NCBI GenBank assembly: GCA_903897805.1
Contig: CAIUCV010000021.1
Location: 1-61,435, forward strand
Source: Candidatus Yanofskyibacteriota bacterium
GTDB taxonomy: Bacteria; Patescibacteriota; Minisyncoccia; 2-02-FULL-40-12; IGHO2-01-FULL-4-A
Length of the DNA stretch: 61,435 nucleotides
Direction: 5' to 3'
Shown here: positions 33,384-36,337 of the stretch, one piece after another
How the letters are laid out: the number at the start of each line of letters is the position of its first letter
Position numbering within the stretch: position 1 is the stretch's first letter
The notes under the pieces: generated by a model
The model's input: the letters and a program-made list of their open reading frames with translations, nothing else
What the model was told of the DNA's origin: nothing
The model's database searches: none
Translations under genes and position numbers: made by a program

Positions 33384-33412
33384 TTGACAAATAAATATAA
33401 AAGGAGTATAAT
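33384..33412 (+). promoter_or_regulatory. Promoter of the DGR target gene
   Basis: TTGACA (33384-33389), 17-bp spacer, TATAAT (33407-33412). The transcript would carry a 150-nt leader with a strong hairpin. Confidence 0.85.
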
Positions 33413-33454: not shown

Positions 33455-33503
33455 TTTGCCACAGCAGAGAGCGCCTTGGGCGGACTTTCTCTGCTGTGGC
33501 AAA
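33455..33503 (+). promoter_or_regulatory. Strong hairpin in the 5' leader of the DGR target gene
   Basis: TTTGCCACAGCAGAGA pairs perfectly with TCTCTGCTGTGGCAAA, with inner GCGCC / GGCGG. It lies 73 bp before the start codon and has no T-run, so it is more likely an mRNA-stability or translation element than a terminator. Confidence 0.75.
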
Positions 33504-33575: not shown

Positions 33576-34253
33576 ATGTTTGACAAGTTTACTTTCAGTA
33601 GTGCCGGTGAAGTTCAAGAGGTAGAATTCGCTCTAGCTAGGGCGTGCTATACCCACCCCGAGGTCAAAGAGTTGTCGAAGGGCGATCTCTTGGGCCAGGT
33701 CCGCCAAATCATCCTTGGCCAAGCCGTAATCAAGCCGGTGGCCGAGGATGCCACTCGGGAGATCACTCTCAACGAAACCACGATCGTGGTGAACCTTGGT
33801 GCCGCACCTAAGCTACCATTCAATGGAGCAGAGGTCGAGAGCCACGCCGGCGAGGGTTGGGCTATCGTCGAGAAGAGTCCCGACGGATTGTATGTGAACG
33901 GCCGCAAGGTCGTATTGCATCTGTCCCGTCGGCAGCAGAATGGCAAGTCGCTCAAGGGCTACGAGCTTCGTGAAGAGCTGACGGGTAAGCCCGTACTCAA
34001 CGCGAATCTGCTCGACACGCTCGCAGACAACTCCCACCTCATACCCGAGGACTGGAAGAAGGACGAGCAGGGTAACACCCGCTACATCTTCTTCTGGGGC
34101 ACCATTTACCGCAGCTCGCGCGGCCACCTCTGTGTCCGCTATCTGTATTTCCACGTTGGGATGTGGGATCGGTACTACGACTGGCTTGACTACGACTGGC
34201 ACGGCAGCCGCCCCGCGGCTCTGCTCGCAAGTAGTAGGTCCTTGGACTTTTGA
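33576..34253 (+). CDS. DGR target protein with variable C-terminus
   Basis: 225 residues from the ATG at 33576, preceded by AAAGGAG. Residues 1-175 are constant (MFDKFTFSSAGEVQEVEFAL, VLNANLLDTLADNSHLIPEDW, TRYIFFWGTIYR). Residues about 178-218 are the variable repeat: aromatic framework residues (VRYLYF, MW, DW, WL, PAALLA) alternate with residues that in the template are Asn. This is the pattern of DGR targets, in which the variable residues sit on a C-type-lectin-like binding surface in characterised cases. No signal peptide is seen. The last residues (SRSLDF) and the stop come from a CCTTGGAC micro-repeat. Codon use is more GC-rich than in neighbours, suggesting separate origin. Confidence 0.9.
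   Translation: MFDKFTFSSAGEVQEVEFALARACYTHPEVKELSKGDLLGQVRQIILGQAVIKPVAEDATREITLNETTIVVNLGAAPKLPFNGAEVESHAGEGWAIVEKSPDGLYVNGRKVVLHLSRRQQNGKSLKGYELREELTGKPVLNANLLDTLADNSHLIPEDWKKDEQGNTRYIFFWGTIYRSSRGHLCVRYLYFHVGMWDRYYDWLDYDWHGSRPAALLASSRSLDF
34107..34230 (+). repeat. DGR variable repeat (VR)
   Basis: 124 bp at the 3' end of the target gene. Aligned to the template (34623-34746) without gaps, it has 16 mismatches, all at template A (A to C, G or T), and none at the roughly 90 non-A positions. The last 20 bp (CCCCGCGGCTCTGCTCGCAA) are identical in both and would serve as the initiation-of-homing region. Confidence 0.95.
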
Positions 34254-34300
34254 ACCTTGGGTCCTCTTGGACCCTTGGAACTTGGTCCTTGGAGCCGGCA
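34234..34300 (+). repeat. CCTTGGAC / CTTGGAAC micro-repeat array
   Basis: Degenerate direct and inverted units GGTCCTTGGAC, GGGTCCTCTTGGACCC and TTGGAACTTGGTCCTTGG right after the VR. It supplies the target gene's stop codon at 34251-34253. Confidence 0.65.
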
Positions 34301-34337
34301 ATTTTGCCGAAACGCTTTCCAGATATGCGTTCAACTG

Positions 34338-34376
34338 GAACCCTGCATGAAGTCTTGTGCGGGGTTTTTACTTTTT
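34338..34376 (+). terminator. Intrinsic terminator of the DGR target gene
   Basis: AACCCTGCA and TGCGGGGTT (one G-T pair) around ATGAAGTCTTG-type loop, followed by TTTACTTTTT. Confidence 0.8.
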
Positions 34377-34403
34377 GATTTAATTTTGTGTTAAGATGTG
34401 TTT

Positions 34404-34445
34404 GGCAGTAGGCGAATATGTGGGAGATTACGGTTTCCTGCTGCC
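34404..34445 (+). other. Hairpin upstream of the DGR template
   Basis: GGCAGTAGG pairs with CCTGCTGCC around a 24-nt loop, in the non-coding 247 bp between target-gene terminator and template. No convincing sigma-70 promoter for the template RNA was found here. Confidence 0.5.
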
Positions 34446-34622
34446 GAACCCAGTATCCATACATTGAGAATATCTCCGACCAAGGTTTGAGATAGAGTGA
34501 TGTATGCAGAAACTTCAAAAATGAAGCTACTTGGTATAGGATGCTAGGGCATTACGATGCCGAATACGATACAGCCTTGAGAGTTATTCAATGGGCAGTG
34601 GCAAGGAAGGCATTCTATACGC

Positions 34623-34746
34623 AACCGCAACTCGAACGGCAACCTCTATGTCCGCTATCTGTATTTCAACGATGGGATGTGGAATCGGAACTACAACTGG
34701 CTTGACAACGACTGGAACGGCAACAACCCCGCGGCTCTGCTCGCAA
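34623..34746 (+). ncRNA. DGR template repeat (TR)
   Basis: 124-bp template. In the target's reading frame it contains 12 Asn codons (11 AAC, 1 AAT), all of which are altered in the variable repeat, plus a TAT and a GAT that are altered. 34 adenines, 16 replaced. In DGRs the TR is transcribed, copied by an error-prone reverse transcriptase that misreads A, and the cDNA replaces the VR. A hairpin with a T-run follows 12 bp after the TR. Confidence 0.95.
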
Positions 34747-34752
34747 CTTACT

Positions 34753-35112
34753 TCATTTCTCTCCCTTATTGGGAGAGTTTTGTTTTTGTAGCTGGCCATA
34801 CCAGCCACCGAGCATCCTGCCAATCTCGTCTATTTTTACGGATAGAGCTATATATTTCTTATTGTCCAAAGACTTGGTTTCCCAGAGTATCATCAAGAAT
34901 ATTTTTAATGTATCAACTTTTCTTATTGCTAGGCGGACATACGGTAGCTTTTCTTCACGCACCAAGAAACTAGCGGTTGCCAGTGCTTCTATGATTTCAA
35001 CGAAGAGAGCATCAATTCTGACGCCAAGCGAGTGCCTATGTGTTTTGGGTATAATTTGATAATATTCATACCAAAGCAAATAAGCACTTTTTACTTTCTG
35101 AAGCAGAGGCAA
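34753..35112 (-). CDS. avd: Avd-like four-helix-bundle protein of the DGR
   Basis: 119 residues, the size of the accessory variability determinant. Predicted four helices: LLQKVKSAYLLWYEYYQII, LGVRIDALFVEIIEALATAS, LPYVRLAIRKVDTLKIFLMI and KKYIALSVKIDEIGRMLGGW. The Avd family forms a positively charged barrel that binds the reverse transcriptase and template RNA and is needed for mutagenic homing. The start is TTG at 35112, since a 12-C tract and a stop lie just upstream; no Shine-Dalgarno is visible. The gene is on the strand opposite to target, TR and RT, and converges on the TR. Confidence 0.85.
   Translation of the reverse strand: MPLLQKVKSAYLLWYEYYQIIPKTHRHSLGVRIDALFVEIIEALATASFLVREEKLPYVRLAIRKVDTLKIFLMILWETKSLDNKKYIALSVKIDEIGRMLGGWYGQLQKQNSPNKGEK
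34759..34787. terminator. Hairpin with T-run just after the TR
   Basis: CTCTCCC-TTATT-GGGAGAG followed by TTTTGTTTTT. It can end the template RNA on the plus strand, and overlaps the last codons of the minus-strand avd gene. Confidence 0.8.
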
Positions 35113-35117
35113 GAGCT

Positions 35118-35129
35118 GGGGGGGGGGGG
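35118..35129 (+). repeat. Poly-G(12) tract between avd and the RT gene
   Basis: Twelve consecutive G lie 19 bp before the RT start codon and 5 bp before the avd start on the other strand. By far the longest G-run noticed in the window; candidate for slippage-based variation, or a sequencing artefact. Confidence 0.85.
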
Positions 35130-35147
35130 CTTAGAAGAGGTATTTTT

Positions 35148-36137
35148 ATGAAAATCCAATTGGCTCATAATTATGAGTATATCATTTCTCTTGAAAATCT
35201 CCTTAATGCATGGAAGGAGTTTATTAAAGATAAAAAATTAAGGAAAGATGTGCAAATTTTTGAACTGGATCTGATGGGCAATATCATTTCGCTCCACAAC
35301 GATCTTGCCGCCAAAATATATAAGCATTCACCGTATCAGCCATTCAATATCTCAGATCCCAAGCCAAGAAAAATACACAAAGCTAGCGTCAGGGATCGGC
35401 TATTGCACCACGCTATATATCGGGCACTCTATCCATTTTTTGACAGAACTTTTATATCCGATTCTTATTCTTGCAGACTAAACAAAGGGACGCACAAAGC
35501 CATAAATAGGTTCTGTAATTTTGCATATAAGGTATCACAAAATCATAAGAAAACTGTGTGGGTTCTCAAGTGCGATATTAAAAAGTTTTTTGCTTCAATT
35601 GACCAAGATATTCTAGCCGAAATCATTAGAGATTATATACCCGACCCAGATATTGTCTGGCTTATCTCTCGAATCATCAGGAGCTTTTACTCAACGAATA
35701 TTGGTGTCGGTTTGCCCTTGGGAAATCTAACCTCACAGCTTCTGGTTAATATCTATATGACTAGGTTTGACCAATTTGTGAAGCATACACTAAAGGCAAA
35801 ATACTATATCCGCTATGCTGACGACTTTGTTATTTTATCTCCAGACAAAAAATGGCCTGAGGAAACAATTCCAAAAATCAGAGATTTTTTATGGAATAAA
35901 CTTCATCTTCAGCTACATCCAGATAAAGTATCAATTCAAACACTAACATCTGGTGTCGATTTTCTCGGTTGGGTGCACTTTCCAAACTACAGGGTTTTGA
36001 GGACCACAACCAAAAAGAGAATGTTTAGGAATATAAAAAATAAACAAGGGAATATAAATACGGTGCAATCTTATCTTGGGCTTATTAGTCATGGAAACTC
36101 AAGAAGATTAGAAGCAAGATTAGGGATTACCGATTGA
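35148..36137 (+). CDS. DGR reverse transcriptase
   Basis: 329 residues, typical of DGR reverse transcriptases and without maturase or endonuclease domains. AGAAGAGG lies 7 bases before the ATG. Palm motifs: KCDIKKFFASID (about residues 141-152, first catalytic Asp), LGNLTSQ (191-197), which is the DGR-type [IVL]GxxxSQ in place of the QGxxxSP of retroviruses and group II introns, and RYADDFVIL (222-230) with the catalytic DD. A thumb region with FLGWVHF follows. It copies the TR into A-mutagenised cDNA. A TATAAT at 35050-35055 inside the antisense avd gene could be its -10 box. Confidence 0.95.
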   Translation: MKIQLAHNYEYIISLENLLNAWKEFIKDKKLRKDVQIFELDLMGNIISLHNDLAAKIYKHSPYQPFNISDPKPRKIHKASVRDRLLHHAIYRALYPFFDRTFISDSYSCRLNKGTHKAINRFCNFAYKVSQNHKKTVWVLKCDIKKFFASIDQDILAEIIRDYIPDPDIVWLISRIIRSFYSTNIGVGLPLGNLTSQLLVNIYMTRFDQFVKHTLKAKYYIRYADDFVILSPDKKWPEETIPKIRDFLWNKLHLQLHPDKVSIQTLTSGVDFLGWVHFPNYRVLRTTTKKRMFRNIKNKQGNINTVQSYLGLISHGNSRRLEARLGITD

Positions 36138-36169
36138 GAGCATAGAGTAGTATAATTATTAAAAACGCA

Positions 36170-36313
36170 GTCGTAATGCCTTTTGGGCATTCCAGCGAGC
36201 GGATTGCTTGGTTAATTTTTGATATAATGTTTCGGCATCAAAAATTAAATCCGTGAGCTGAAATAGCGTAGCCGCCGCTGGAGCGGCGGAGCGTGCCCAG
36301 AAGGCATTATGAC
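36170..36313. repeat. Structured palindrome after the DGR (possible family A relative)
   Basis: 144 bp closed by GTCGTAATGCCTTTTGGGCA / TGCCCAGAAGGCATTATGAC. Contains a terminal stem TTAATTTTTGAT / ATCAAAAATTAA, a side hairpin GCCGCCGCT / AGCGGCGG and the words CCAGCGAG and GGATTGC seen in family A. The overall layout is similar but the core is not the same. Confidence 0.7.
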
Positions 36314-36337
36314 GGAGTTTGTAATTTAATTCAAGAA

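Follow-up and report, generated by a model that had tools for sequence, protein, structure and literature searches.

The window, the whole 61,435-nt stretch of DNA analysed here, contains one complete diversity-generating retroelement (DGR) with a target gene, VR, TR, avd and a reverse transcriptase (RT) gene (Table 1). The target gene encodes the variable protein and has no match in Pfam or NCBIfam. Within TR, 15 of the 15 differences from VR fall at TR adenines. The translated RT carries the marks of a DGR-type enzyme, LGNLTSQ (with SQ in motif 4) and YADD (YxDD), and a minus-strand ORF matches Pfam bAvd (E 7.7e-11, above the Pfam cut-off) and the NCBIfam Avd model NF033474 (E 1.8e-18, which is under that model's own cut-off). 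Adenine differences between TR and VR, a DGR-type RT and Avd, by which DGRs are recognized, are all found at this locus. The TGA stop codon of avd (34753-34755) lies 6 nt past the end of TR. An in-frame TAA borders the G tract, and the first start codon to follow it, the TTG at 35112, is the candidate avd start; the true start is uncertain. The original prediction of an antisense avd, situated between TR and RT and converging on TR, is borne out by the coordinates and strand of this ORF and by its bAvd match. A second avd gene holding the real function had been considered, and a search across the 622 kb assembly found no other copy. The -10-like matches for an RT promoter within avd, or an avd promoter within RT, lie in coding sequence and are uninterpretable.

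Table 1. Features of the element, with positions in the window
Feature	Position	Strand	Remarks
Variable protein (target) gene	33576..34253	+	ORF; VR in 3' part
VR	34108..34230	+	123-nt repeat, 88% identity to TR
Weak -10-like box TAAGAT	34391..34396	+	At leader RNA 5' end
Structured 5' leader of DGR RNA	34400..34623	+	~225 nt, about seven helices; covariation
Leader strand AAATGAAG of long-range helix	34519..34526	+	3' end directed into TR; covariation
Leader main stem	34534-34545 : 34609-34620	+	Encloses two hairpins; compensatory changes at 10/12 pairs
TR	34624..34746	+	Repeat partner of VR 34108-34230
Post-TR strand CTTCATTT of long-range helix	34751..34758	+	Overlaps avd stop codon; covariation
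avd (bAvd family)	34753..35112	-	Convergent with DGR RNA, divergent from RT
Intrinsic-terminator-like hairpin and T tract	34757..34787	+	Within avd 3' end; probable DGR RNA 3' end
Poly-G tract, 12 G	35118..35129	+	avd/RT junction; candidate phase-variation switch
DGR reverse transcriptase	35148..36137	+	RVT_1 match, E 1.2e-22

About 29 nt 3' of VR, an inverted repeat (GGGTCC-TCTT-GGACCC, 34259-34274) resembles the target hairpin or cruciform of other DGRs. Upstream of the target gene, a perfect TTGACA-17-TATAAT promoter precedes a 16-bp perfect inverted repeat (33384-33412, 33455-33503). Directly 3' of RT, a 32-nt imperfect inverted repeat with an arm spacing of 104 nt (36158-36325) is possibly a small mobile element.

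Gene order in related elements

Relatives of the RT were sought in 383 class genomes, in 379 genomes of the phylum and in named genomes (Yanofsky-, Nomura-, Azam-, Kaiser-, Komeili- and other Parcubacteria). The DGRs of this clade are widespread, a related RT being present in 164 of the 383 class genomes. All loci with sufficient upstream sequence and an RT identity of at least 44% carry avd antisense in the ~400 nt upstream of RT; this covers the class loci with enough upstream sequence and the complete phylum and named-genome loci at that identity. In nearly all relatives with a detected TR, some 400 nt separate the TR end from RT. In a tree of 67 RTs, 58 inverted-avd loci form one clade (95/85) separate from the same-strand BPP-1-like loci, and the sole remaining row of the clade sits at a contig edge. 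The original prediction had proposed a comparison of gene order across other CPR DGRs; because of this survey and the RT tree, the inverted avd can be recognized as the norm of a large clade and not a quirk of one genome. The element is a standard DGR of one RT clade dominated by Patescibacteria, which are ultra-small bacteria.

Some loci of the survey have features of their own. In a deep DGR lineage (L299, L300, L301 and L303), the inverted avd overlaps the 5' end of RT and TR abuts avd; the lineage shares the inverted avd, yet it has no terminator after TR. L274, L280 and L282 are DGRs in which a single TR matches two VRs. The 1.1 kb around the DGR junction is identical in L153 and L154 (genomes G198 and G060), which points to recent transfer or contamination.

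Leader, TR and terminator-like hairpin

Of 101 relatives, 71 have a TATAAT-like sequence in the region homologous to the weak -10-like box at the leader 5' end, where 25 are expected. Many column pairs strongly co-vary in the alignment of the leader from 101 loci; columns 178 and 188, for instance, form a GC, CG, AT or TA pair in 98 of 99 sequences. Compensatory double changes occur at 26 of the 29 consensus pairs of the leader (45 divergent sequences). The covariance model R1 matches 34459-34623 with an E value of 1.7e-30, the window itself being in the training set, and is present in 119 of the 383 class genomes, mostly ~700 nt upstream of RT. R1 has 42 matches in phylum and viral loci and no match in the BPP-1-like loci searched. 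The predicted fold of 34400-34787 has a z of -2.5, and Rfam, searched over 34240-35160 at gathering and lax thresholds, gives no credible family.

Just after TR, a hairpin with arms CTCTCCC/GGGAGAG and a T tract is found at about 34759-34787. A hairpin with a T tract within 75 nt past TR is present in 82 of 102 loci, compared with 8% of dinucleotide shuffles, and a mid-avd control for the same rule is positive in 9 of 102 loci. The rule failed in the other 20 loci, several of which have visibly longer loops and some of which may truly lack a terminator. These terminator-like hairpins have 72 different 5' arms and lie wholly inside avd in 31 loci, so the hairpin is conserved at the level of RNA and not of protein sequence. 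Because a terminator-like element is conserved just after TR, the TR RNA most likely ends at this hairpin. It had been proposed that the hairpin could decide between a short TR RNA and read-through into the spacer; it probably does set the RNA 3' end, as its recurrence among relatives suggests, and its place is inside the last codons of avd, not in a gap between TR and avd.

With respect to a functional spacer, the sequence has a terminator following TR and covarying structure 5' of it. When leader windows were compared without bias with windows downstream (~1600 pairs), a single peak emerged, AAATGAAG with CTTCATTT (t -10.3, background sd 1.2), and CTTCATTT begins 5 nt beyond the last TR base. 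Cognate strands pair more stably than permuted ones (z -9.4, 0 of 10,000 permutations). The geometry of this helix is primer-like in that the 3' side of the leader strand faces TR, and the long-range pairing has a competitor in the leader itself, a local CTTC/GAAG hairpin. The near-invariant A34529 of the leader is a candidate primer nucleotide. Because a covarying leader lies upstream of TR and a segment of it pairs after TR, the work that a 3' spacer does in BPP-1 seems here to have passed to the 5' side. Although the 3' spacer is required in BPP-1 (PMC12875486), and although RT and avd are homologous to those of BPP-1, it is improbable that a read-through 3' spacer serves here as the RNA for RT-Avd binding and priming, with the leader merely a regulatory 5' UTR: the leader holds the segment that co-evolves most strongly with the post-TR bases, and in the aligned 3' flank no covariation is seen past the terminator.

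The original prediction went further and proposed that an RNA carrying TR and its downstream spacer would be antisense to avd mRNA, which could couple cDNA synthesis to the level of Avd. For this, the TR RNA would have to read past the hairpin into the spacer. The geometry is compatible with such coupling, and synonymous constraint is raised in the last 16-18 codons of avd, as it is at the first codons. However, the constraint at the avd end coincides with the long-range helix and the terminator, and the constraint in the avd interior resembles that of the RT control. The terminator-like hairpin of most relatives and the conserved covarying structure upstream of TR, which pairs with bases after TR, likewise speak against the proposal, as do cassettes without nearby avd or RT that still display A-specific TR/VR differences. 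In two such loci (L325 and L309), a VR is accompanied by leader, TR and terminator, the adenine differences number 35 and 20, respectively, and the 3.8 kb examined downstream contains neither avd nor RT. Thus, the conserved RNA unit does not include an avd gene antisense to it in cis, and the coupling, which the terminator and the 5' structure leave unsupported, is highly improbable, even if some read-through may occur. Antisense constraint along avd as a whole was dismissed, the synonymous signal being raised at its two ends only.

The L325 genome carries other DGR RTs, which suggests that the leader-TR units of L325 and L309 are satellites served in trans. L317, L320 and L327 retain the leader, avd and a TR-like stretch, and RT was not found nearby.

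Repeat tract at the avd/RT junction

The G12 tract is the only G or C run of at least 9 in the assembly (621,693 bases). G8 or longer is found at the junction in 110 of 166 inverted-avd relatives, and none of 12 distant DGR loci has a G run of that length at the junction. Sequence from elsewhere, 1.46 Mb in all, contains 7 G/C runs of at least 8. The tract is therefore far above background at one conserved site, as in contingency loci. Among the remaining 56 junctions, ~21 have GA, CT, TG, TTGG, ATTG, CTGTC or TGTCC repeats, and no 3- or 6-nt unit was seen in the junction repeats. No repeat of any kind is found at 34 of the 166 junctions. In relatives that are 89-92% identical, the difference in the tract equals the whole gap count (G8 vs G9, 1 gap; GA8 vs GA6, 4 gaps), with the proviso that homopolymer lengths in MAGs may be miscounted. 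Five loci that are mutual close relatives (L119, L252, L187, L198 and L069) have a junction without poly-G, with TTGG x11 in L119 and ATTG x7 in L252.

The frame of the tract relative to avd is random. An upstream in-frame start for avd is found in 26 of 113 loci at the observed tract length, in 54 at +1 and in 62 at +2, and loci without a tract are also sometimes without a clear avd start. Of 134 loci, 98 have an RT start codon beyond the tract and 36 do not, and for RT no preference is seen. On these counts, neither avd nor RT stands out as the gene framed by the tract, and a switch could act through the reading frame or through promoter spacing.

At the level of sequence, the junction repeat is the signature of simple-sequence phase variation, from which we infer switching. 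A structural repeat (an RT 5' UTR element, a spacing element or part of a protein-binding site) would fit the RT start codons beyond the tract and the random frame relative to avd, but is rather unlikely given that unrelated non-triplet repeats substitute for poly-G in other loci and that tract length differs between close relatives.

Proposed mechanism and comparison with known systems

The element is likely a clade-standard DGR with a lone leader-TR-terminator RNA, cDNA synthesis positioned or primed by the leader, and an avd gene (perhaps also RT) switched by the repeat. A noncoding RNA of ~390 nt comprising leader, TR and terminator would be transcribed on its own, and its leader would be bound by RT and Avd. 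A segment of the leader would anneal beside the TR 3' end with its 3' side toward TR and so position or prime cDNA synthesis, and the terminator would keep avd out of the DGR RNA. Slippage of the poly-G (or GA, CT, 4- or 5-nt) repeat would toggle avd, in some loci perhaps RT, and would lead to phase-variable hypermutation. If true, the poly-G switch would explain how cells limit a self-mutating system. A leader, TR and terminator RNA with the specific helix represents a minimal construct for cDNA priming. More tentatively, the DGRs of Patescibacteria may constitute a second mechanistic class, with a self-terminated RNA, retron-like priming from the 5' leader and phase-variable protein genes.

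To our knowledge, the known DGR mechanism derives from one phage. In BPP-1, avd precedes TR on the same strand, and the structured spacer that follows TR on its 3' side folds, brings in RT-Avd and serves to prime cDNA synthesis (PMC12875486, PMC8867640). The element has in common with the BPP-1 DGR a DGR RT, bAvd, an adenine-specific TR/VR pair and a structured RNA beside TR. Unlike in BPP-1, the structured RNA lies 5' of TR, the terminator comes straight after TR, and a repeat tract is found at avd/RT. The predicted difference in gene order is likewise confirmed: avd is not upstream of TR on the RT strand but on the opposite strand between TR and RT.

The leader, the helix and the repeat are new as far as the searched literature and Rfam go. 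The gene order may have been illustrated before, possibly in figures of Paul et al. in 2017 or Wu et al. in 2018, the former of which reportedly treats the DGRs of Patescibacteria. These DGRs are RT clade 2 of Roux et al. (2021; PMC8144416), a paper in which the words Avd, accessory, orientation and strand did not turn up in a word search. The present element comes from the same host group, and the survey suggests membership in clade 2, as an assignment made without placement on their reference tree.

In retrons, the 5' structured part of the msr-msd RNA precedes the template, and a 5' segment pairs 3' of the template (a1/a2); priming is from the 2'-OH of a branch guanosine. The DGR RNA seems to be laid out in the same way, with 5' structure predicted before the template and a 5' segment predicted to pair 3' of it. 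Unlike a retron, this element has a DGR RT with avd and TR/VR, and the best retron model scores its RT at 62 bits, compared with a cut-off of 235.

In contingency loci of Neisseria and Campylobacter, an extended poly-G tract or a different repeat lies at a gene's 5' end or close to it (PMC5084427, PMC8355987). No literature linking a DGR to simple-sequence contingency loci was found among the matches listed. As in the contingency loci so described, the junction repeat varies between relatives; unlike in those loci, the system under control would be programmed hypermutation, and, if this is true, repeat slippage itself turns targeted hypermutation on and off.
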